From NCBI RefSeq assembly GCF_003428335.1, contig NZ_CP031704.1, positions 3,534,001 through 3,598,000 on the forward strand: a stretch of 64,000 nt of DNA. Direction: 5' to 3'. Under the pieces are notes generated by a model. That model was not told where the DNA came from, ran no database searches, and worked only from the letters and a program-made list of their open reading frames with translations. Shown here in pieces: positions 1,840-31,248 of this stretch (position 1 is the stretch's first letter; each line of letters opens with the position of its first letter). The position numbers and the translations under genes were made by a program. Source of the stretch: Solimonas sp. K1W22B-7. Lineage in GTDB: Bacteria > Pseudomonadota > Gammaproteobacteria > Nevskiales > Nevskiaceae.

Positions 1840-2502
1840 ATGGGTCGCCAGGAACAGACCGAGGAAGTTCGCAGGAAAGTCGTCGCCGCCGCGCAGCGGC
1901 TCTTCCTGGACAAGGGCTATGCGCAGACGACCCTGCGCGAGATTTCTACGGCTGCCGGCGTGTCCTACGGCAGCATCTACCACCACTTCGAGGACAAGGA
2001 CGGCATCTTCCGCGAGCTGATCCTCGACAACTTCGAGACGGCGCAGGAGGCCGCGGACCGGCAGCTGACCGCCAAGGCCGACGTCTACCTGCGCCTCGGG
2101 CTGAAGTGGGCCAGCCTGGCGCAGGCGATCTCGTCGGATGCGCGGGTTGCGGAACTGCTCGGCGTGGCCTATCGCTCCTGGAAGATTTCCGAGTCGCTGA
2201 TCGAGGTTTCCACGGCGAGGCATCGCGACTGGCTGCGAGCGGAGCTGCCGGACTGGACGGAGAACCAGTTCCTGGCGGCCACGCTCGCGCTGAGCGGCAC
2301 GCTGTCGAGCATGGTCGACGAAAAGCTGAATCTCGATCGGCTGACGCCTGCCGAGCGGATCGGCGCCGTGCTGTCATCCGCCCTGCCCGGCTTCGGCGCG
2401 GATCCGCGCACGACGCAGCGGGTGATCAAGCAGGCGCTGGAACTGGCGCCTCCCACTGCGGCGACGGCGCTGTCGAAGGCGAAGCGGGCTGCGGGCAGGT
2501 AG
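1840..2502 (+). CDS. TetR/AcrR family transcriptional regulator
   Basis: 220 residues with a classic N-terminal TetR helix-turn-helix (about residues 10-57: RRKVVAAAQRLFLDKGYAQ, then TLREISTAAGVSYGSIYHHF). The C-terminal ligand domain is helical and not specific enough to name an inducer. The ATG at 1840 follows a GGGGTGGGGA Shine-Dalgarno. It probably binds the palindrome at 1782-1801, repressing itself and the divergent lipoprotein gene. Confidence 0.85.
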   Translation: MGRQEQTEEVRRKVVAAAQRLFLDKGYAQTTLREISTAAGVSYGSIYHHFEDKDGIFRELILDNFETAQEAADRQLTAKADVYLRLGLKWASLAQAISSDARVAELLGVAYRSWKISESLIEVSTARHRDWLRAELPDWTENQFLAATLALSGTLSSMVDEKLNLDRLTPAERIGAVLSSALPGFGADPRTTQRVIKQALELAPPTAATALSKAKRAAGR

Positions 2503-2640: not shown

Positions 2641-3423
2641 CTAGAGCGGCTGGTTCGGCACGCCCTCGAACAGTTGCTCGGTCGGCCCCACGATCACCAG
2701 GCCCATCAGCTTGGTGGCCAGGTGTGGCGCGAAGACCGACAGGTAGACGACGTGGCCGATGACGATGGCGGCGGCGATCGAGAGCAGCGAGGAGCGCAAG
2801 CGGCTCTTCGTCTTCGAGTCTGCCCACAGGTCGATCAGCGAGCGCCCCAATGGGTCGGTGCGGCCGAGCAGGTAGGTGAAAACCATCATCTGCACGCCCA
2901 TCGCCAGGGCGTCGTAGAGCGGATATTGGTGTTTCGTGCCTTCCCGCAGCGCGAGGCCTTCGATCACGCGACCGTAGTGGAAAACACCGAGCTTTGCCCC
3001 GAGGCCCGCATTGAACATCAGCGCCCAAAGGAAGCCGACGAACAGGCCCGTGATCAGCAGGGTCTGGGGCGCGCGCCACTGGAATGTCTCGATCAGCCAG
3101 CGCCCCAGGGAGACGCCGATCACCGCAGGCAGGACGAAATAGGCGATGTATCCCGGGGGCACCGAGGCCGGCAGGCCGCCCCAGGTCATGTTCAGGGGCC
3201 ACCAGGCCGGCATGCGCGGAATCGCGGTCGGGAACTGCGCGTACATCGCCCAGTCGTAGGGCGCCTCGATCCACGAGAACGAGATGGCGGAGATGCACAG
3301 GAGCAGCAGCGCATGCGGCCGGCCCCGGCGATAGCTCAGGACCAGGCCGGTGGCCACGAAGACGACCGCGCCGACGTAGGCGAAGCCGATCGAGGCCTGC
3401 AGCAGCGGGGTGAGTTCGGACAT
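2641..3423 (-). CDS. AveC-like (spirocyclase AveC family) multi-pass membrane protein
   Basis: 260 residues with about six to seven hydrophobic segments and conserved aromatic, Pro and Trp-rich loops (SWIEAPYDWAMYAQFP near residues 50-65, WWPLNMTWGGLP near 75-86). This pattern resembles the AveC-like family, named for the avermectin spiroketal cyclase. Family recognition is from memory and moderately certain. Last gene of a compact operon (7481 to 2641). Its ATG overlaps the stop of the 38-residue ORF upstream (TAATG), which implies translational coupling. No polyketide genes are nearby, so an avermectin-like role is not implied. Its link to the MoxR/VWA pair suggests it is a subunit or partner of a membrane complex. 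Confidence 0.6.
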   Translation of the reverse strand: MSELTPLLQASIGFAYVGAVVFVATGLVLSYRRGRPHALLLLCISAISFSWIEAPYDWAMYAQFPTAIPRMPAWWPLNMTWGGLPASVPPGYIAYFVLPAVIGVSLGRWLIETFQWRAPQTLLITGLFVGFLWALMFNAGLGAKLGVFHYGRVIEGLALREGTKHQYPLYDALAMGVQMMVFTYLLGRTDPLGRSLIDLWADSKTKSRLRSSLLSIAAAIVIGHVVYLSVFAPHLATKLMGLVIVGPTEQLFEGVPNQPL

Positions 3424-3539
3424 TACCGGTCGCCCTGCTTCTGCGACGGGGCACGCGCCTGGGGATCGTAGCGAAGCACCAGGCCGAATATCAGGACGAT
3501 CAGTCCGAACAGCGTACCCAGCATGATCAGTGCACCCAC
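3423..3539 (-). CDS. 38-residue single-span membrane protein
   Basis: Short ORF with a GTG start at 3539, preceded by GAGGAA about 7 nt upstream. The stop TAA overlaps the ATG of the AveC-like gene. It has one strongly hydrophobic helix (GALIMLGTLFGLIVLIFGLV) followed by a basic, polar tail. The position, Shine-Dalgarno and overlap argue that it is real. It is one of three tiny membrane proteins in this operon and may be a small accessory subunit. Confidence 0.55.
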   Translation of the reverse strand: MGALIMLGTLFGLIVLIFGLVLRYDPQARAPSQKQGDR

Positions 3540-3626
3540 GGCAGGATTCCTCAAGACTCGATGATTCGGGGCGTCGGGCTCATGGCTGCAGGGAATCCGC
3601 CACGGGTTCCGCAGCGACCCTGGTTC

Positions 3627-4091
3627 TCAGGGAGCAGGCGGGGCCGGAGCGGCCGCGGCTCCTGCAGCAGCTGCCCCTGCTGCGCCCGCTGCGGCCCTGA
3701 GCTTTGCAGCGGCCGCCTCCCGCGCCAGCCGCTCGTCACGGAACCGGATGAGGTCATGGAAGCCGATCTTCTTGTAGTGCGGCCGCGGCTGGATGCCCCA
3801 GGTATCCTTCGCCGTCTTCTGGCCCCTGGCCTCCGAAGGCGCGAACAGGGGATGAGGCACCTGGCACTCGCGCGAATCGTCGGCGAACCGGACCTTCTCC
3901 ATCTCATGACAGACCTCGGTCAGGGACAGCGTGGGCCAGCCCATCCAGACCGCGATGAAGGGCAGCGAGAACGACGCTTCGATGACCAGGCAGACCAGGC
4001 AGACGAACAGTCCGCGCTGCAGCCACTTGTGCATGTTGGCGTAGTGCGCGGTGGTGCCCAGCGGCAGTTCTTTTTCAGTGGAAGTGCTCAT
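3627..4091 (-). CDS. Single-span membrane protein with Ala/Pro-rich tail, function unknown
   Basis: 154 residues. One transmembrane helix at about residues 26-50, then a soluble domain with a Cys/His-bearing stretch (CHEMEKVRFADDSRECQVPH, about 61-80), and a C-terminal Ala/Pro low-complexity tail. The start at 4091 has AGGAAA upstream. It lies 35 nt downstream of the 231-residue membrane protein gene in the same operon. The Cys and His residues could bind a metal or form a disulphide, but that is speculation. No family recognised. Confidence 0.6.
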   Translation of the reverse strand: MSTSTEKELPLGTTAHYANMHKWLQRGLFVCLVCLVIEASFSLPFIAVWMGWPTLSLTEVCHEMEKVRFADDSRECQVPHPLFAPSEARGQKTAKDTWGIQPRPHYKKIGFHDLIRFRDERLAREAAAAKLRAAAGAAGAAAAGAAAAPAPPAP

Positions 4092-4126
4092 ATATATTTC
4101 CTATGCGTTGGCCCGGAAGCGGGCCG

Positions 4127-4822
4127 TCACTCCGAGAAGATTTCGCGGTTGACCGTGTGCAGGTAGGGCAGCGACAGGAAGGGCGTGATGTACCAGATGT
4201 CGTAGATCCACCAGCCCCAGACCGGGAACACGACGCCGGCGTAGCGCACGTCGGCGAAGATGGTCATGTTGGTGTTGTAGCCGGTCCAGACGATCACGCC
4301 CATCCAGCAGGTGACGATCAGCCACTGCTGTCCCCAGCGCTTCATCTGCAGCAGGCCTATGGCGGCGGCCAGGCGCGCGCAGAACAGCACGGGGATCAGG
4401 GCGATCTCCCAGGCTTTCTCGCCGGGCGCGCCGGAACCGCCGATCCACAGCTCGTTGTAGTGCCAGAAGTAGCCTCCATCCACCAGCGCGCCCCAGCCCG
4501 TGGTGAGCACGCGATTGATCAGGGTGTGGTGGGCGAAGAGATCCAGCGTCCAGCCCATGCTGTTCAGGGCGGAGTCGATGATCACCAGGTAGCCGATCAG
4601 GGTGACGATGACCGGGCGCACGGAAAGCCCGGCCTTCGCCGCCTGTATCTGCAGATGCAGGCCCCAGAGGAACATCGGCAGGCCGAAGATGCCGAGCACG
4701 GCGGTGCCCATGAGGATGGTGCCCGAGATCATCCACTTGTCGGCGCGAAGCTGCGCGGCCGCGCTGTCGCTCTGGTGCGAATCGTAGTTGCCGAAGCTTC
4801 CGGAACTGGTAATGGTCGTCAT
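4127..4822 (-). CDS. Multi-pass membrane protein of the MoxR/VWA cluster
   Basis: 231 residues with about five hydrophobic helices and many Trp and His residues in or next to the membrane (LFAHHTLINRV, GGYFWHYNELWIGG, FPVWGWWIYDIWYITPF). Clustered His, Glu and Asp near helix ends would suit a membrane metal centre or a lipid-facing active site, but I cannot assign a family. Only 7 nt separate its start from the stop of the 44-residue ORF upstream. Probably a core membrane subunit of whatever complex the AAA+/VWA pair serves. Confidence 0.6.
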   Translation of the reverse strand: MTTITSSGSFGNYDSHQSDSAAAQLRADKWMISGTILMGTAVLGIFGLPMFLWGLHLQIQAAKAGLSVRPVIVTLIGYLVIIDSALNSMGWTLDLFAHHTLINRVLTTGWGALVDGGYFWHYNELWIGGSGAPGEKAWEIALIPVLFCARLAAAIGLLQMKRWGQQWLIVTCWMGVIVWTGYNTNMTIFADVRYAGVVFPVWGWWIYDIWYITPFLSLPYLHTVNREIFSE

Positions 4823-4829
4823 TGCGGTT

Positions 4830-4964
4830 TCACCAGTCGCTGATGGATTTCAGGTACAGCTGGACCAGGAAGGTGCCGAAGATCCAGCTGTAGATCAGGA
4901 TCTGGAAAACGATCATGGCCTTCTTGCGGCGGCGGTCCTGCTCGGACACGGATTGGTTGCTCAT
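4830..4964 (-). CDS. 44-residue single-span membrane protein
   Basis: ATG at 4964 overlaps the TGA of the MoxR gene (ATGA), so it is translationally coupled. The product has a charged N terminus (SEQDRRRKK) followed by one hydrophobic helix (MIVFQILIYSWIFGTFL) and a short tail, so an N-in orientation is likely. Too short for most gene callers. Coupling on both sides makes it a credible gene. Function unknown. Confidence 0.6.
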   Translation of the reverse strand: MSNQSVSEQDRRRKKAMIVFQILIYSWIFGTFLVQLYLKSISDW

Positions 4965-5791
4965 GCCTTGGCCCCTCCTGCATTTGCACGTGCATTGCTT
5001 GCGGATGTGGTGACACCCACCAGGCTTGCGGCGGCCAGCTCACGCAGGCCATCGGTGATGGCGCCGTCGTTGCTCAGCGGCGCCAGGATGCAGACCTCGG
5101 CGGCTTCCACCTCGGTGGCACCGGCGGCGACCAGCTTCGCGGCCGTGACCAGGACGCGCGTGGAAGGCGGCTCGAAGTGGAAGACGTTGTCGGCCTTGCG
5201 GATGGCCATGGCGCAGTTGACCAGCCGCCGGGCGGCCGCCAGGTCGATGCCGGCCTCGGCCACCAGCACCTCGGCCTCGCGATCGGGCGACAGGTAGGTC
5301 ATGGCCACGGTGACGAAGCGCTGGCGGAAGGAGGGCTTGAGTTCCTTCAGCGAGCTGCGGTAGGCCGGGTTGTAGGAGCAGACCAGCATGAAGCTGTCCG
5401 GCGCCTGCAGGACCTGGCCGCTGCGATCGAGGTACAGCGAGCGGCGGTGGTCGGTCAGCGAATGCAGGATGGCGAGGGAGTCGTGGCGCGCCTCCACCAC
5501 CTCGTCGAGGTAGCAGATGGCGCCGTCCTTGACCGCCCGCGTCAGCGGCCCGTCGTTCCAGACGACGTCGCCGCCGGTCACCATGAAGCGGCCGACCAGG
5601 TCGGAGCTGGTCAGGTCGTCGTGGCAGCTGATGGTGACGACGGGGCGGCCCAGCACGCCGCCCATGTACTCGACGAAGCGCGTCTTCCCGCAGCCGGTCG
5701 GTCCGGTCAGCATCACCGGCACGCGCTGCTCGGCGGCCTTCCTGAACAGCGCCACTTCGGAACCGTTGCTCTGGTAGTAGCTATCCTTCAT
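4961..5791 (-). CDS. MoxR-type AAA+ ATPase, CbbQ/NirQ/NorQ subfamily
   Basis: 276 residues. Walker A GPTGCGKT at residues 30-37, Walker B AICYLDE at 91-97, an NPAYRSSLKELKPSFRQRF segment with the sensor/arginine-finger region, and a C-terminal CbbQ/NorQ-like lid. In known systems these ATPases work with a VWA partner (CbbO/NorD) to remodel or activate metal enzymes such as Rubisco or nitric oxide reductase. Here the partner is encoded immediately upstream (5813-7345), but no Rubisco or NorCB gene is present. The ATG at 5791 has GAGGAG 5 nt upstream. The client is probably the membrane proteins encoded downstream. Confidence 0.88.
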   Translation of the reverse strand: MKDSYYQSNGSEVALFRKAAEQRVPVMLTGPTGCGKTRFVEYMGGVLGRPVVTISCHDDLTSSDLVGRFMVTGGDVVWNDGPLTRAVKDGAICYLDEVVEARHDSLAILHSLTDHRRSLYLDRSGQVLQAPDSFMLVCSYNPAYRSSLKELKPSFRQRFVTVAMTYLSPDREAEVLVAEAGIDLAAARRLVNCAMAIRKADNVFHFEPPSTRVLVTAAKLVAAGATEVEAAEVCILAPLSNDGAITDGLRELAAASLVGVTTSASNARANAGGAKA

Positions 5792-5812
5792 GCACTCCTC
5801 ATCCTTGTTTGT

Positions 5813-7345
5813 TCAGTTCGCCACGAGTTCGCGGTGAACCTGTGCCAGTACACGGGGCAGCTCTTCCACCCGGCGGATACGCGTAGAGCGCCGCGGCCCG
5901 AAAATGTCGGGCAGCGGATCGACCTTGGTCGGGCCGACGCCGATGTAGTAGAGGGACACGCCGGCGTCCTCGGCTTCCTCGACCGCATGGGCCGCATCCG
6001 CCCAGGCATAGCGGCCCTCGTAGCCTTCGTCGGAGAGCTGTCCGTCGCCGATCACGATCAGCAGGCGGCGCTCGGAAGCCTGCGCCAGCAGGCGGCTGGT
6101 GAGGTGGCGCAGGGGCGCTCCCAGGCGGGTGTAGCCGCCGGTCAGCAGGCCGAGATCGCTGGGCATGACCGAGTGCGCGTCCTTGAAATCCCTGAGGCAG
6201 GTGACGTCCACCCGGTGCCGGGTCTTGCCGTTGAAGACGAACAGTCCGTGCCGCTCCCGCGCGAGGGACATGGCGTGGCAAAGCGCGTCGGCGCAGGCCA
6301 GCTCCAGCTTGAAGCTGCGGCCGTTCTGCCCGCCGAGCGAGGCGCTGCCGTCGAGCAGCAGCGCGGTGGTGACGTCGCGGAAGGCGGGCTTGAGGTCGCG
6401 GAAGACCCGCGCCTCGGCGGCCTTGCCGGTGAGGCGGTCGACATGGAAGTCGATGTACGGGTCGATATCCAGGTCGGAGCCGTCCTCGAGGCGCCTCTGC
6501 ATCACGCGATGCGTGTGCTCCTCGAACCAGCGGCGCAGATCGGCCGATGGCGGTCGCGCGGCGCCCTGTTTCGCCTGCAGCTTGCGCTCGAGGACGGCGA
6601 CGTGGTCGGGAAGGAACTTGCGGGTCCACAGGTTCCACTCGGGATACGGAACCCCGGCGCGCTGGTCGGCGCGGATCTCGGGGTCGTCGTCCTCGGGGCG
6701 GCTGGGCGGCGGGATGCGGGAACTCTTGATGTTCCCCTCGCCGCCCACCGGGATCGTTTCGTAGCCCGGCGAGAGGTAACGCTTGGTCTTGGACCAGGGC
6801 ATGCGCCCCTGGCGCCTGCGCAGGGCGTCCAGCAGGCCGCCCCTGGCGGGCACGCCCAACGGCAGCTGGCCCAGCACCGGGTGATAGTTCAACTCCTGCG
6901 CCGACTGCGCCAGCGCCATCGCGCTCTCGAGAATCGCTACGCCATCCAGATCGCTGCTTCTCATCTCCAGGTCGGGCAGGAAGCGCCGCAGCTCGGGCAC
7001 CAGGCCGGGCCAGCGTGAGCCCACCCAGCCCAGCGCCACCCCGCCTTCGACCAGCGAAAGCGCGGTGATCTGCCGGGGCGACAGGGCCTTCAGGGTGAAA
7101 GGGGCGATGCGGCTTTTCGACGGCGAGCATTGCATGGCGATGCCGCAGGTCCAGGTTCTCAGGCTCCAGTCCGGCGTGATGGCCGGGTACGGAACGTTCA
7201 TCACCGTTCGCCCGGTGTTCATGCCGAACATGCGGCGCGCGCCCGACATGAGGCGGACGCTCTCGCAGCCCCCGTCCGAGATCGCGGAGGCCACGACGGC
7301 GCAGCTGCGCTCGATGCTCAGGGCGTCTGGGGAGCCGTAGGACAT
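5813..7345 (-). CDS. VWA-domain protein, CbbO/NorD-like partner of the MoxR ATPase
   Basis: 510 residues. The C-terminal half is a von Willebrand A domain with an intact MIDAS: DGSAS at residues 332-336, a Thr in LLTGGYTRLG near 393, and an Asp in LLIVIGDGQLSD near 420. The N-terminal half is less conserved, as in CbbO/NorD. CbbO/NorD proteins act as adaptors that dock the ATPase ring onto a client through MIDAS-bound metal. The gene lies 21 nt upstream of the MoxR gene. The start at 7345 has only a weak Shine-Dalgarno; in-frame ATGs at Met33, Met40 and Met42 are alternatives. Confidence 0.85.
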   Translation of the reverse strand: MSYGSPDALSIERSCAVVASAISDGGCESVRLMSGARRMFGMNTGRTVMNVPYPAITPDWSLRTWTCGIAMQCSPSKSRIAPFTLKALSPRQITALSLVEGGVALGWVGSRWPGLVPELRRFLPDLEMRSSDLDGVAILESAMALAQSAQELNYHPVLGQLPLGVPARGGLLDALRRRQGRMPWSKTKRYLSPGYETIPVGGEGNIKSSRIPPPSRPEDDDPEIRADQRAGVPYPEWNLWTRKFLPDHVAVLERKLQAKQGAARPPSADLRRWFEEHTHRVMQRRLEDGSDLDIDPYIDFHVDRLTGKAAEARVFRDLKPAFRDVTTALLLDGSASLGGQNGRSFKLELACADALCHAMSLARERHGLFVFNGKTRHRVDVTCLRDFKDAHSVMPSDLGLLTGGYTRLGAPLRHLTSRLLAQASERRLLIVIGDGQLSDEGYEGRYAWADAAHAVEEAEDAGVSLYYIGVGPTKVDPLPDIFGPRRSTRIRRVEELPRVLAQVHRELVAN

Positions 7346-7370
7346 GCCGGTTGCGCTCAGGAAGCCGGGA

Positions 7371-7481
7371 TCAGAACGTGCCCACGGATTCGAAGAACCA
7401 GTACCAGAACCAGATGACCAGGCCGGCGATGCCGAAGGCGAAGGCCATCCGCAGGGAGTCCAGAAGGAACAGTTCCAGCAT
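7371..7481 (-). CDS. 36-residue single-span membrane protein, first gene of the MoxR/VWA operon
   Basis: A longer open frame extends to 7577, but the ATG at 7481 has an excellent Shine-Dalgarno (GAGGAGA, 7 nt), and the upstream part holds predicted operators, so 7481 is chosen. The product is one aromatic-rich transmembrane helix (GIAGLVIWFWYWFF). It is the promoter-proximal gene of the operon. Function unknown. Confidence 0.55.
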   Translation of the reverse strand: MLELFLLDSLRMAFAFGIAGLVIWFWYWFFESVGTF

Positions 7482-7863
7482 GTTCAATCTCCTCGTGGGT
7501 GAATGCGTGGATTGCAGAACCGGAGAGGCCCGCAGCGGTAGGGCAACGCTGCCTTCCCGCGCCTCTGTTCTACTCACGAGTAAAACAGTATTCTACTTTC
7601 GAGTCAACGAAAATTTGACTGGCGAGTCAAGGCGCCTTGCCTGCAGGTGACAGGGCTGTGTCAGGGCTGTTCAACGCCGGGTCCGAGGGACAGACAGGGA
7701 GGGAGTCGCGGGCGCAAGGAGGGCTTCGGGTAACCGGAGATCGCGAGCGGGGCCGGGGCCGCCAGCGCCGGTCAGCAGGAAGCGGCGACCCCGTCTTCCT
7801 ATTGCCGATGGGGCCTCATGTATCATCGCCCCGTAGTTCTACTTTAGAGTCAGTCGATCAAAA
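7482..7863. promoter_or_regulatory. Divergent regulatory region with four TACT-N4-AGT operator copies
   Basis: 382 bp without a gene, between the operon start at 7481 and the TetR start at 7864. Dyads: TACTcacgAGTA at 7571-7582, TACTttcgAGTC at 7594-7605, TTGACTggcgAGTCAA at 7615-7630, and TACTttagAGTC at 7840-7851. The first three are spaced by exactly 23 bp. The fourth sits just before the TetR gene. The arrangement suggests cooperative repression of the operon plus autoregulation. The middle of the region (about 7640-7830) shows nothing I recognise. Confidence 0.6.
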
Positions 7864-8556
7864 GTGCAGAAGACCAAAAGCCCCCGACCGTTGCGCCCTA
7901 CCAAGGTCACCCGTTCGGCCATCCTGGAAGCCGCCGAGAAATTGTTTGCCCGCCGCGGCTACGCGGTGGCGCGTCTGGAAGACGTGGGGGATGCGGTGGG
8001 CCTGACGCGGCCGGCGCTTTTCTATCACTTCCCGGACAAGCAATCGCTCTATAACGCCGTGCTCGAGGAAGCCTTCAGGCCGCTGGTCACGCAGATCGAC
8101 GCGGCCCTGTCGTCGTCGAAGCCGATCCCGCAACGCATCGAAGACGCGGCCGAGGCCTGGGTGGACGGCGTCGCCGCCCGGCCGACGCTGTCGCGCCTGA
8201 TCCTGCGCCACGTCGCCGACGCGGAAGAGCACCCCATGCAGAGCATCTATCCCGACTCGGACCGCTTCATCGGCATGGCCTGGGGCCTGTTCCAGAAGGG
8301 GATCGCCAGCGGCGAGTTGAAGCCGCTGCACGACGATCCCTTCCACGCGGCCAGCGCGATCATCGGAACGACGGTCTTCTACGTCAACGCCTTGTCGGTG
8401 CTCATTCCCAACGGCACCTACAACCCGCTGGAACCGCATGAAATCGCGGCCCACAAGGCCGAGACCATCAACTCCGTCAGGCGCCTGCTGGGTATCGCGA
8501 CGGCACCGCCGAAAGCCAAAGCCGGCGCCGCTGGCAAACGTCCCGCGAAGAAGTGA
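7864..8556 (+). CDS. TetR/AcrR family transcriptional regulator, divergent to the MoxR/VWA operon
   Basis: 230 residues. TetR helix-turn-helix at about residues 14-60 (TRSAILEAAEKLFARRGYAV, LEDVGDAVGLTRPALFYHFPDK). The C-terminal domain is helical and resembles TetR C-terminal domains that sense hydrophobic ligands, but no inducer can be named. The tail is Lys/Ala-rich. The start codon is GTG at 7864 with no clear Shine-Dalgarno, so the transcript may be leaderless. The operator at 7840-7851 is 12 bp upstream. Probable repressor of itself and of the 7481-2641 operon. Confidence 0.82.
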   Translation: MQKTKSPRPLRPTKVTRSAILEAAEKLFARRGYAVARLEDVGDAVGLTRPALFYHFPDKQSLYNAVLEEAFRPLVTQIDAALSSSKPIPQRIEDAAEAWVDGVAARPTLSRLILRHVADAEEHPMQSIYPDSDRFIGMAWGLFQKGIASGELKPLHDDPFHAASAIIGTTVFYVNALSVLIPNGTYNPLEPHEIAAHKAETINSVRRLLGIATAPPKAKAGAAGKRPAKK

Positions 8557-9946: not shown

Positions 9947-10951
9947 TCATACCGGCGAAAGCCGGTAGGTGGATTCACATTTGAAATGCAACACTTTGGC
10001 GAAGACCTCGGCTGGGGTTTTGAAGCCGAGGCACTTGCGTGGCGTGTGATTGTAGATCTGAGCGATCTGCAAGAGTTGGTCTGGTGAGAGGTCTTCGACG
10101 TTGGTTCCCCGGGGTAGCCAGCGGCGCAAACGCCCGTTGGCATTCTCGACGCCACCCTTCTGCCAGGGGGAATGCGGATCGCAGAAATAGGTCTGCAAGC
10201 CCAGGGGCTGATGCAGGGTGTAGTGCAAGGCGAATTCGGTGCCGTTGTCGAAGGTGATGCTGCGGCGCAGGGCTGGGGGCAGTGGGGCCAGCAAGGCCTG
10301 GAGGGTTTGCGCCACCGGCGCAGCGGCCTTGCTGGGCTGGCGGACGATGGCGGTCAGCCGGGACGTTCGCTCATGCAGGGTCAGGATGGCTTGGCCATAG
10401 CGCGCAAAGAGCATCAGGTCGGCTTCCCAGTGTCCCGCCTGGCGCCGGTCAGCCGCAGCCTTGGGGCGCTTTTCGATCGAAACCCGCTGCTGGATGTGCT
10501 CTGCCGGGCTGCCGCCCTTGCGGCCACGGAAGCCGCGCTTGCTCTTGGCACGGGGCAGATAGAGACGCCAGGAAAAGTCGTTGGTCCGGGCGATCTGGGC
10601 GGCAATGAAGCGATAGATGCTCTCGTAGCTGATCTGCAGATCCTGCTGAGCCAGCCGCCGCGATACCTGCTCGGGAGACCAGCCTCGGCGCAATCCCTCC
10701 AGAACCCTGGCTTGCAGCTCGGCATCACGCAGAAGCCGGCTACCTTGCCAGCGGCGCGCCCGAGCTTGCTCGCCGGCATAGACGCTCTGGTAGCCCGTCG
10801 CGCCAGTGTTGCGCTTCAGTTCCCGAGAAATGCTCGATGGCGCGCGATCCAGAGCTGCCGCAATTTGCCGGATCGACTCCCCGGCTTGGCGCCGACGGGA
10901 AATCTCACACCGTTCCTCGATTCCAAACTGCTCAAAGCTCTTGCGTCCCAT
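9947..10951 (-). CDS. IS30-family transposase
   Basis: 334 residues. N-terminal helix-turn-helix (ERCEISRRRQAGESIRQIAA, then SSISRELKRN) and a DDE integrase core: first Asp in GHWEADLMLF, second in ITFDNGTEFALH, Glu in KGGVENANGRLRRWLPRG. All catalytic residues are present, so it is probably active. The start at 10951 has a GAGGGTG Shine-Dalgarno. Oddly, the frame runs through the element's left terminal repeat and ends in host sequence at 9947: the last seven residues and the stop codon come from the target palindrome. Confidence 0.92.
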   Translation of the reverse strand: MGRKSFEQFGIEERCEISRRRQAGESIRQIAAALDRAPSSISRELKRNTGATGYQSVYAGEQARARRWQGSRLLRDAELQARVLEGLRRGWSPEQVSRRLAQQDLQISYESIYRFIAAQIARTNDFSWRLYLPRAKSKRGFRGRKGGSPAEHIQQRVSIEKRPKAAADRRQAGHWEADLMLFARYGQAILTLHERTSRLTAIVRQPSKAAAPVAQTLQALLAPLPPALRRSITFDNGTEFALHYTLHQPLGLQTYFCDPHSPWQKGGVENANGRLRRWLPRGTNVEDLSPDQLLQIAQIYNHTPRKCLGFKTPAEVFAKVLHFKCESTYRLSPV

Positions 10952-29702: not shown

Positions 29703-30893
29703 ATGACGACGCAAACCCTGGATACGGGCAACACGGGTAACTGGAAGGACGGCAAGCGCGGCCTGTGGATGATGGGCGTGCTGTGGCCGGCACTGCCGCT
29801 GATCAGCGCGGCGCTGGCGCTGGGCACGGGCCTGGGCCTGTTCTGGTGGCTGACGCCGGTGGTGATCTACGGCGTGCTGCCGCTGCTGGACAAGCTGGTG
29901 GGCGAGGACAGCAACAACGCGCCGGAATCGGCCGTGGCGGCCCTGGAGAACGACCGCTACTACCGCCTGGCGACCTACCTGTTCATCCCGGTGCAGTACC
30001 TGAGCATCATCGGCGGCGCCTGGCTGGCGGTGAAGGGCGGCCTGCCGCTGCTGGACATCCTGGGCCTGGCGGTCTCGGTGGGCCTGGTCAGCGGCGCCGG
30101 CATCAACACGGCGCATGAGCTGGGCCACAAGCGCGAGACGCTAGAGCGCTGGCTGGCGCGCATCACGCTGGCGCCGGCGATGTACGGCCACTTCTACGTC
30201 GAGCACAACCGCGGCCACCACGTGCGCGTGGCGACGCCGGAAGACCCGGCGAGCTCGCGCCTCGGCGAGAGCTTCTATGCCTTCTGGCCGCGCAGCGTGA
30301 TCGGCAGCCTGAAGTCGTCCTGGCACCTGGAGAAGGCGCGCCTGGAACGCCAGGGCAAGAGCGTGTGGCACTGGAGCAACGACAACCTGCAGAGCTGGGG
30401 CATGACGGTGCTGCTGTTCGGTGCGCTGGCCGTGTGGCTGGGCCCTGTCGTGCTGCCCTTCCTGATCTTCCAGGGCTTCATCGGCTTCTCGCTGCTGGAG
30501 GTGGTGAACTACCTGGAGCACTACGGCCTGGTGCGCCAGAAGGAAGCCAGCGGCCGCTACGAGCGCTGCAAGCCGGAGCATTCCTGGAACAGCAACCACA
30601 CCGTGACCAACCTGATGCTGTACCACCTGCAGCGCCACTCGGACCACCACGCCAACCCGATGCGCCGCTACCAGGCCCTGCGCCACTTCGAACAGGCACC
30701 GCAGCTGCCCTCGGGCTACGCCGGCATGATCGTGGTGGCGATGATCCCGCCGCTGTGGCGCTCGATGATGGACAAGCGCGTGCTGGCCCACTACGCCGGC
30801 GACGTGACCCGCGCCAACATCCACCCGCCGGTGAGGGAGAAGATCCTGGCGAAGTATGGCGCCGACTATCAGACGCAGCGCGTAGGAGCCTGA
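29703..30893 (+). CDS. alkB: Alkane 1-monooxygenase (AlkB)
   Basis: 396 residues with six hydrophobic helices and the eight-His di-iron signature of membrane alkane hydroxylases: NTAHELGHK (His138, His142), EHNRGHH (167-173) and [11 protein letters not shown] near 310, plus the NYLEHYGL motif near 265. Inner-membrane enzyme that hydroxylates the terminal carbon of alkanes using electrons from rubredoxin. A strong Shine-Dalgarno (GAGAGGAG) precedes the ATG. Two rubredoxin genes follow at once. Confidence 0.96.
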
Positions 30894-30895
30894 TC

Positions 30896-31072
30896 ATGGA
30901 ACGCTACCAGTGCAATGGCTGCGGCTATGTCTACGAAGCCGCCAAGGGGGATCCGCACAATGGGTATGCACCGGGCACGCCGTTCAGCGCGCTGCCGCAG
31001 GACTGGTGCTGCCCGGATTGCGCGGTGCGGGAGAAGCCGGATTTCGCGGTGCCCGAGGAGACGGCGGCATGA
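30896..31072 (+). CDS. Rubredoxin, AlkG1 type
   Basis: 58 residues starting 2 nt after the alkB stop codon. Two iron-binding pairs: CNGC near residue 6 and CPDC near 39. After the second pair it reads AVREKPDF, so the usual Gly is missing and one extra residue (Arg) is present compared with the next rubredoxin. That Arg insertion marks the AlkG1 class, which in published complementation work does not support alkane hydroxylation. Its own role is unclear. Confidence 0.88.
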
Positions 31073-31248
31073 AGACCTGGACCTGCGTCACCTGCGGGGT
31101 GATCTACGACGAAGCCCAGGGCTGGCCCGATGACGGCATCGCCGCGGGTACGCGCTGGGAGGATGTGCCGGAGAGCTGGACCTGCCCGGATTGCGGGGCG
31201 GCGAAGGGGGAGTTTCAGATGGTTGAGGTGATGAAGAAGGCGGCTTGA
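31069..31248 (+). CDS. Rubredoxin, AlkG2 type
   Basis: 59 residues. The ATG overlaps the stop of the first rubredoxin (ATGA). Iron ligands CVTCG near residues 6-10 and CPDCG near 39-43, both with the standard Gly. This is the AlkG2 class, able to pass electrons to AlkB. No rubredoxin reductase gene is in the window. Together, alkB and the two rubredoxins form a compact plus-strand operon. Confidence 0.9.

Follow-up and report, generated by a model that had tools for sequence, protein, structure and literature searches.

The stretch of DNA analyzed here, hereafter the window, comprises 64,000 nucleotides from Solimonas sp. K1W22B-7 (contig NZ_CP031704.1, positions 3,534,001 to 3,598,000) and carries on its minus strand, between positions 2641 and 7481, a close-set group of eight open reading frames (ORFs), all of which were confirmed. 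The group begins with the gene for a single-span protein of 36 amino acids with a hydrophobic segment (sm36; 7371-7481), followed by genes for a protein with a von Willebrand factor A (VWA) domain of the NorD type (5813-7345), a MoxR-class AAA+ ATPase of the NorQ/CbbQ type (4961-5791), a 44-amino-acid single-span protein with a basic N-terminus and a hydrophobic segment at residues 16-34 (sm44; 4830-4964), a multi-span membrane protein of 231 residues (p231; 4127-4822), a 154-residue protein with one membrane span and a subsequent domain containing two invariant cysteines (p154; 3627-4091), a 43-amino-acid single-span protein whose TTG start is uncertain (sm43; 3423-3554), and a 260-residue membrane protein of the AveC_like family that belongs to a short subfamily (AveC260; 2641-3423). 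The intergenic distances amount, in this order, to 25, 21, -4, 7, 35, 72, and -1 bases, so that the dense packing stated in the preliminary description of this DNA is indeed present. In each of the three small ORFs, codon position 2 changes least, and the alignment of sm36 reveals a conserved R as well as conserved FWYW and GTF motifs. Pfam scans of the window proteins assign AveC260 to AveC_like (PF17198; 229.6 bits, cut-off 26.6), the VWA protein to PF00092 (34.5 bits), and the ATPase to AAA_5 (2e-34) and CbbQ_C (4.3e-21). They return no match for sm36, sm43, p231, and p154, and only one below the cut-off for sm44 (BRD4_CDT, 15.6 bits versus 27). The conserved unit is formed by the six genes sm36-VWA-MoxR-sm44-p231-p154; AveC260 and sm43 constitute a second module, associated with this core but separable from it.

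That the ATPase and the VWA protein represent a pair of the CbbQO/NorQD type, as had been proposed from the sequence of the window, is borne out by profile searches. A profile of 21 core and three paralogous ATPase sequences (20 of the 59 core places and the window protein, plus the three paralogues) finds NorQ as its best match in the PDB (E 3e-103) and CbbQ at E 9.6e-98 (5c3c, 6l1q). For the VWA protein, NorD is matched (E 1.7e-43) by the C-terminal part only, over profile positions 219-500 of 501; its N-terminus (residues 1 to about 208) is followed by a NorD-like linker, the finger region, and a VWA domain with a metal ion-dependent adhesion site (MIDAS). Our alignments combine the respective window protein with sequences from 23 of 72 places for the VWA protein, 43 of 127 for p231, 35 of 60 for p154, and 47 of 57 for AveC. 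The MIDAS motif DxSxS-T-D (D332, S334, S336, T406, and D434) is invariant in all 24 VWA sequences. The comparison with NorQD is drawn from excerpts of PMC13036017 and PMC9976466; in the former, the NorD finger is located to residues 403-448, and Cys46 and Cys68 of NorQ are described as forming an inhibitory disulphide. The finger region aligns by sequence with the VWA protein, which also keeps the C-terminal LVA (the window protein ends with RELVAN), and the ATPase possesses the invariant residues C34 and C56, which correspond to the NorQ cysteines and, like these, are 22 residues apart. The resemblance thus covers the sequences of both proteins, the MIDAS, the finger region, the C-terminal LVA, and the cysteine pair, and it extends to the placement of the pair in one operon with the genes for a membrane complex and for small membrane proteins, the latter being norE and norF in the NorQD system according to PMC13036017. 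In contrast to the latter, there is no norCB in the operon studied here, the N-terminus of the VWA protein is unmatched, the H2i motif of the ATPase differs, and the pair is placed inside the cassette of its proposed client, between sm36 and sm44. With the RuBisCO activase CbbQ/CbbO, the system shares a CbbQ-type AAA+ protein and a VWA partner, but the genome lacks a RuBisCO large subunit and the proposed client is a membrane complex. In a tree of the 24 VWA proteins, 12 sequences of the Gammaproteobacteria type are cleanly split from 12 of Actinomycetota; one sequence stems from a metagenome-assembled genome (MAG) that is labelled Verrucomicrobia but placed within the family of the window's organism. 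The contig in question (L025; CAJCJI010000046.1) bears the title Verrucomicrobia bacterium although its locus is Nevskiaceae-like, and it probably represents a mislabelled bin.

Relatives of p231 were found in 277 stretches of genome contigs. The 77 loci onto which our analysis relied derive from the best 80 of these stretches and lean toward close relatives since they were found through six peptide patterns; matches within them were kept only above gene-specific identity thresholds. In 70 of the 77 loci, p231 and p154 are accompanied by both the VWA and the ATPase gene within 4.5 kb upstream, an arrangement beyond chance. Detected were sm36 in 76 loci, p154 in 75, the ATPase in 71, and sm44 in 70 (five of the seven loci in which it was not detected are otherwise complete); AveC260 and sm43 were each present in only seven. 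Hence, the eight-gene grouping originally suggested stands for the six core genes but not for AveC260 and sm43. The gene order of the core is found again in Mycobacterium, Nocardia, Rhodococcus, Gordonia, and Gammaproteobacteria, although some loci, L053 among them, depart from it. Six p231 cassettes retain sm36, sm44, and p154 without an ATPase/VWA pair within 4.5 kb upstream, and because these cassettes keep all four membrane proteins together, the latter look like one complex.

Searches across whole genomes lead to the same picture. Among the 201 genomes of the M. celatum family, the profiles of p231, p154, and the VWA protein (above 500 bits) match the same 19. Among 85 genomes of the order to which the window belongs, p231 occurs in six and the VWA protein, at more than 900 bits, in the same six; ten further genomes yield distant VWA matches only. 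The presence of p231 is patchy, and the gene is missing from all three further genomes of the same genus as the window. Co-occurrence of the 231-, 154-, and 260-residue proteins with the pair had been named as a check on the proposed system: p231 and p154 follow this expectation (the latter assessed in the 201 genomes only), but AveC260 does not, as it is found in nine of the 19 genomes and in two others that lack p231. A regular occurrence of p231 or p154 without the VWA protein, an outcome that would have spoken against the proposal, was not encountered; an orthologous VWA protein is encoded by all 36 p231 genomes tested, including those in which the local cassette is devoid of the pair (one VWA copy, in G480, is cut by the end of its contig). 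For the ATPase, presence was assessed within the 77 loci, of which 71 contain it. A weak match to p231 in G104 (E 6e-4, 33% identity over query residues 26-118, in a frame of 711 amino acids) was set aside. Collectively, these data strongly support the view that the ATPase/VWA pair is dedicated to the neighboring membrane proteins, in keeping with their initial designation as its likely client.

The known clients of such pairs were absent, as had been stated at the outset for RuBisCO and nitric oxide reductase (NOR). The RuBisCO large subunit (PF00016) was not found in the Solimonas genome, and five of 14 control genomes were positive in this search. The genome contains two COX1-family genes, and since these are closest to CtaD/CoxA and CyoB, respectively, neither is NorB. 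In Pfam scans, no NOR family was recognized among the eight proteins of the operon, a statement that concerns the operon, as the flanks of the related loci were left unscanned for norCB. We consequently dismissed RuBisCO and NOR as clients.

The membrane protein p231 is strongly conserved: 82 columns are invariant in the alignment of 44 sequences, with a mean column identity of 75%, and the invariant residues include H99, H121, and H222 in addition to acidic residues. Invariant His and acidic residues, for which the alignments were to be inspected, are thus present; a single site holding all of them does not fit our topology, in which H222 falls at the other membrane face. The conserved residues permit a metal site without proving it. 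In p154, residues C61 and C76 are invariant in the alignment of 36 sequences, and we infer that the domain following its membrane span lies outside the cytoplasm. Neither protein is significantly matched in Pfam or the PDB: at E 10, the PDB search with p231 remained empty, the best PDB match of p154 (E 0.48) is not significant, and what Pfam scans of all 44 p231 and 36 p154 sequences produced at E 0.1 was confined to stray matches. A relationship of p231 to AveC was likewise rejected (probability of 2.7% in a profile comparison). The copper-containing particulate methane monooxygenase (pMMO) and ammonia monooxygenase (AMO) of aerobic hosts consist of several membrane subunits together with small ones and are similar to the system described here in this general plan only; neither p231 nor p154 is significantly matched in Pfam or the PDB, and a NorQD pair is not known to serve these enzymes. 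In many actinobacterial loci (e.g., L043, L044, and L047-L050), sm36 is immediately preceded by an additional copy of p231, and the complex may accordingly hold two different p231 subunits. A distant relative of p231 (36% identity) is encoded on a plasmid of Mycobacterium branderi (L005, 14654-15615) amidst genes for lipid catabolism; no full-length VWA ortholog is present on this plasmid. This protein has N, N, and Y at the positions of H99, H121, and H222, respectively, lacks E124, D191, and E227 as well, and is preceded by an 82-amino-acid protein that weakly resembles the membrane span of p154 (14 bits, E 0.02). Loss of the histidines where the plasmid provides no VWA protein would fit a role of these residues in a client site, but a single sequence is suggestive only.

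The data lend themselves to a model in which a NorQD-type insertase matures a dedicated membrane metalloenzyme of four subunits (sm36, sm44, p231, and p154) that functions in the catabolism of hydrophobic compounds, a reading to which we assign slightly better than even chances. Its components differ in strength: the pairing of motor and client is strongly supported, the insertion of a metal by the pair is inferred by analogy with NorQD, and the metalloenzyme is plausible. A NorQ-like hexamer would turn the VWA protein, whose finger would reside in the pore of the ring. The MIDAS may grip the complex from the cytoplasmic side by an acidic residue, for which E227 and D28 of p231 are candidates, and the family-specific N-terminus of the VWA protein might confer specificity for the client. 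ATP-driven twisting would then open the complex for the insertion of iron or copper into p231, the main candidate for the metal-site subunit, where H99, H121, E124, D115, and D191 on the presumed external side could serve as ligands. The matured complex would probably oxidize a hydrophobic compound within the membrane with the aid of quinol or another membrane-bound electron donor, in the setting of a TetR-controlled regulon that comprises cytochromes P450, short-chain dehydrogenases/reductases (SDRs), and AveC-like enzymes. An extension of this model, possible but doubtful in our estimation, would see the complex as a new class of metalloenzyme, without sequence match to AlkB, copper membrane monooxygenases, or heme-copper oxidases, that has its own NorQD motor and oxidizes hydrophobic compounds in the membrane; AveC-like proteins would then represent parallel membrane enzymes served by NorQD-type pairs.

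Several observations weigh against the metalloenzyme model. No PDB entry matches the VWA profile over positions 1-208, the N-terminal part of NorD is unmatched, and the ATPase of the window deviates (GRFMVTGGDV) from the H2i motif GRXLL/IXXXXT of NorQ, which is present in the paralogue-type ATPases (three sequences, GRYLLHGGET and similar). None of the eight genes encodes a redox partner or a metal transporter. No fold backs an oxidoreductase, as the structural model of p231 is poor (predicted local distance difference test, pLDDT, of 64) and the best Foldseek hit (E 2.1) falls short of the threshold of E 0.001. In a topology that we read from charge and hydropathy rather than from a prediction program, H222 lies near the cytoplasmic end and thus misfits a single site with the other candidate ligands. 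In the M. branderi relative, a His directly precedes the position of H99, and as this protein keeps 43 of the 82 invariant columns, the loss of three given His residues by chance has a probability of about 0.10. Without mismatch, the operator-like pattern discussed below is encountered at a single further place in 132 loci, covered by both L013 and L020. Finally, the evidence for the type of substrate comes from the gene neighborhood only.

The same co-occurrence data would apply if the pair assembled or remodeled a metal-free membrane complex, for instance a transporter or channel for hydrophobic compounds, in the role of an activase or of a chaperone for assembly comparable to CbbQO or RavA-ViaA and not in that of a metal insertase. 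Metal binding is putative, p231 and p154 of the window are devoid of any Pfam domain, be it redox-related or other, and control by a TetR-type regulator would also suit transport. We nevertheless judge a metal-free client to be somewhat unlikely: the closest PDB relative of the VWA protein is NorD, whose known task, as given in PMC13036017, is the insertion of iron, p231 carries invariant His and acidic residues, and its high mean column identity suits the core of an enzyme, though not exclusively so.

An improbable alternative is that AveC260 is the true client and that p231 and p154 are accessory. Its attraction lies in the neighborhood of AveC_like genes and NorD-like genes, which we examined in the 36 genomes that hold 38 of the 77 loci (98 AveC, 39 core VWA, and 49 paralogous VWA places, after omission of an AveC place that scored below the family cut-off): for 44 of the 49 NorD-like genes of the paralogous type, an AveC_like gene is located no more than 8 kb away. 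Moreover, nine of the 11 AveC260-bearing genomes among the 201 of the M. celatum family also have p231 (hypergeometric P 4e-9, a value that, like our other co-occurrence statistics, is uncorrected for kinship). Yet an AveC_like gene is found within 8 kb of only seven of the 39 core VWA genes, ten of the 19 p231 genomes lack AveC260, two of the 11 AveC260 genomes lack both p231 and the core VWA protein, and in the nine shared genomes AveC260 and p231 are separated by more than 0.9 Mb or reside on different contigs. The constant partner of AveC260 is sm43, which is found directly upstream of it in all 27 places (24 distinct). Since MoxR-type pairs can act on unlinked targets, as portrayed for RavA-ViaA, the pair might also serve an enzyme encoded elsewhere, such as a cytochrome oxidase or NOR, and its position next to p231 would be incidental. 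We already regard this notion as disfavored and as very improbable: the VWA protein and p231 share their presence without exception in 286 genome searches (201 and 85), the operon order recurs in two phyla, and there is no NorB among the COX1-family genes.

The p231/p154 system is apparently undescribed; no account of it was found in full-text searches of an open-licence library. Few clients of NorQD-type motors are known, and the one proposed here is compact, as it comprises four membrane proteins that form one cassette in two phyla and that evolution has already separated from the motor in some genomes. It would provide a second membrane client with which metal insertion by VWA/AAA+ motors can be assessed, and it may be an unrecognized catalytic complex of bacteria that consume hydrophobic compounds. 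The vicinity of AveC and NorD-like genes suggests, in addition, a broader and possibly metal-dependent role for the AveC-like family, whose name stems from one antibiotic pathway.

A TetR-type regulator is encoded divergently from the core operon on the plus strand (7864-8556), and it is a likely repressor of this operon. The interval between sm36 and the TetR gene harbors three operator-like sites of 16 bases, 23 bases apart (7568-7629), upstream of sm36, and a fourth just upstream of the TetR gene (7837-7852). The pattern was derived from the sites of the window itself; across the 64 kb it matches four times, at three places, versus a mean of 0.10 in shuffled sequences. Relatives of the regulator (48-63% identity) stand beside the core or the cassette in eight distinct loci, divergently in seven of them but not in L025. 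When up to two mismatches are allowed, L020, L016, and L022 show paired sites ahead of the core that keep the 23-base spacing, L019, L021, and L026 contain one site each, and L025 has none; for L020, the four matches were not reached in any of 100 shuffles, a control that was confined to this locus. The divergent TetR protein probably controls the core operon. In L012, about 14 kb from the operon, a related TetR gene (53% identity) is divergent from a P450 gene (start 8341, PF00067), with a similar site at 8463. As the relaxed pattern has four matches across L012, a number reached by three of 200 shuffles and thus not clearly beyond chance, this regulatory link rests on the position of the site and the related TetR. 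A second TetR gene of the window (1840-2502, plus strand; PF00440, 60.4 bits) is convergent with the operon, and its membership in the system is uncertain.

AveC260 shares a locus with the core or the cassette in seven of the 77 cases, six of them gammaproteobacterial or the MAG L025 and one from Mycobacterium (L057, at a distance of about 8 kb); in L019, L021, and L025 it lies downstream on the same strand. A P450 gene is located within 4 kb of AveC260 in 18 of the 27 places, in 13 of which (that of the query included) the protein is at least 67% identical to the query P450. The protein scores far above the Pfam cut-off for the family of the AveC spirocyclase/dehydratase, but it differs from AveC in its adjoining sm43 and as a member of a short subfamily with D57 and N138 (21 of 21 sequences); the other subfamilies have N57 (25 of 27) and E138 (27 of 27), and this swap of acid and amide suggests that residues 57 and 138 touch. 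No fold could be assigned to AveC260, for which a confident AlphaFold2 model (pLDDT 91.7) gave a best Foldseek match of only E 0.13. AveC_like genes of several subfamilies adjoin NorD-like VWA and NorQ-like genes in L012, L113-L116, L119, and L122. In the Solimonas genome, such a cluster (L012) lies on the far side of the operon, about 5 to 19 kb beyond position 2641, with genes for two P450 proteins, a TetR regulator, an AveC-like protein, an SDR, a VWA protein, a TonB receptor, and an ATPase. A comparable set, comprising a spirocyclase, a P450, an SDR, an aldehyde dehydrogenase, two TetR proteins, and CbbQ/NirQ, appears among isolate-specific genes of M. avium subsp. paratuberculosis in a passage of PMC10876796 and is left uninterpreted there.

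The remainder of the window is fitting for a host that consumes hydrocarbons or lipids, as judged from genes for beta-oxidation and from a gene for a membrane desaturase/AlkB-type protein followed by one for rubredoxin (29703-31245), which resemble an alkane-hydroxylase pair; the former was assessed against the broad FA_desaturase family, and its designation as AlkB-like was made by eye. As to a steroid or an alkane as the substrate, the literature gave no experimental lead. Neither p231 in viral contigs nor AveC260 on plasmids was detected, and the M. branderi protein is the one p231 relative found on a plasmid. Among 236 plasmid records with VWA matches, none reaches a query coverage of 80%; the 15 matches listed comprise VWA proteins of alphaproteobacteria and of one Sphaerotilus. 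About 2.5 kb from the operon lies a transposase-like gene (9947-10951) with a helix-turn-helix motif and a weak match to the rve integrase core, which by eye appears IS30-like.

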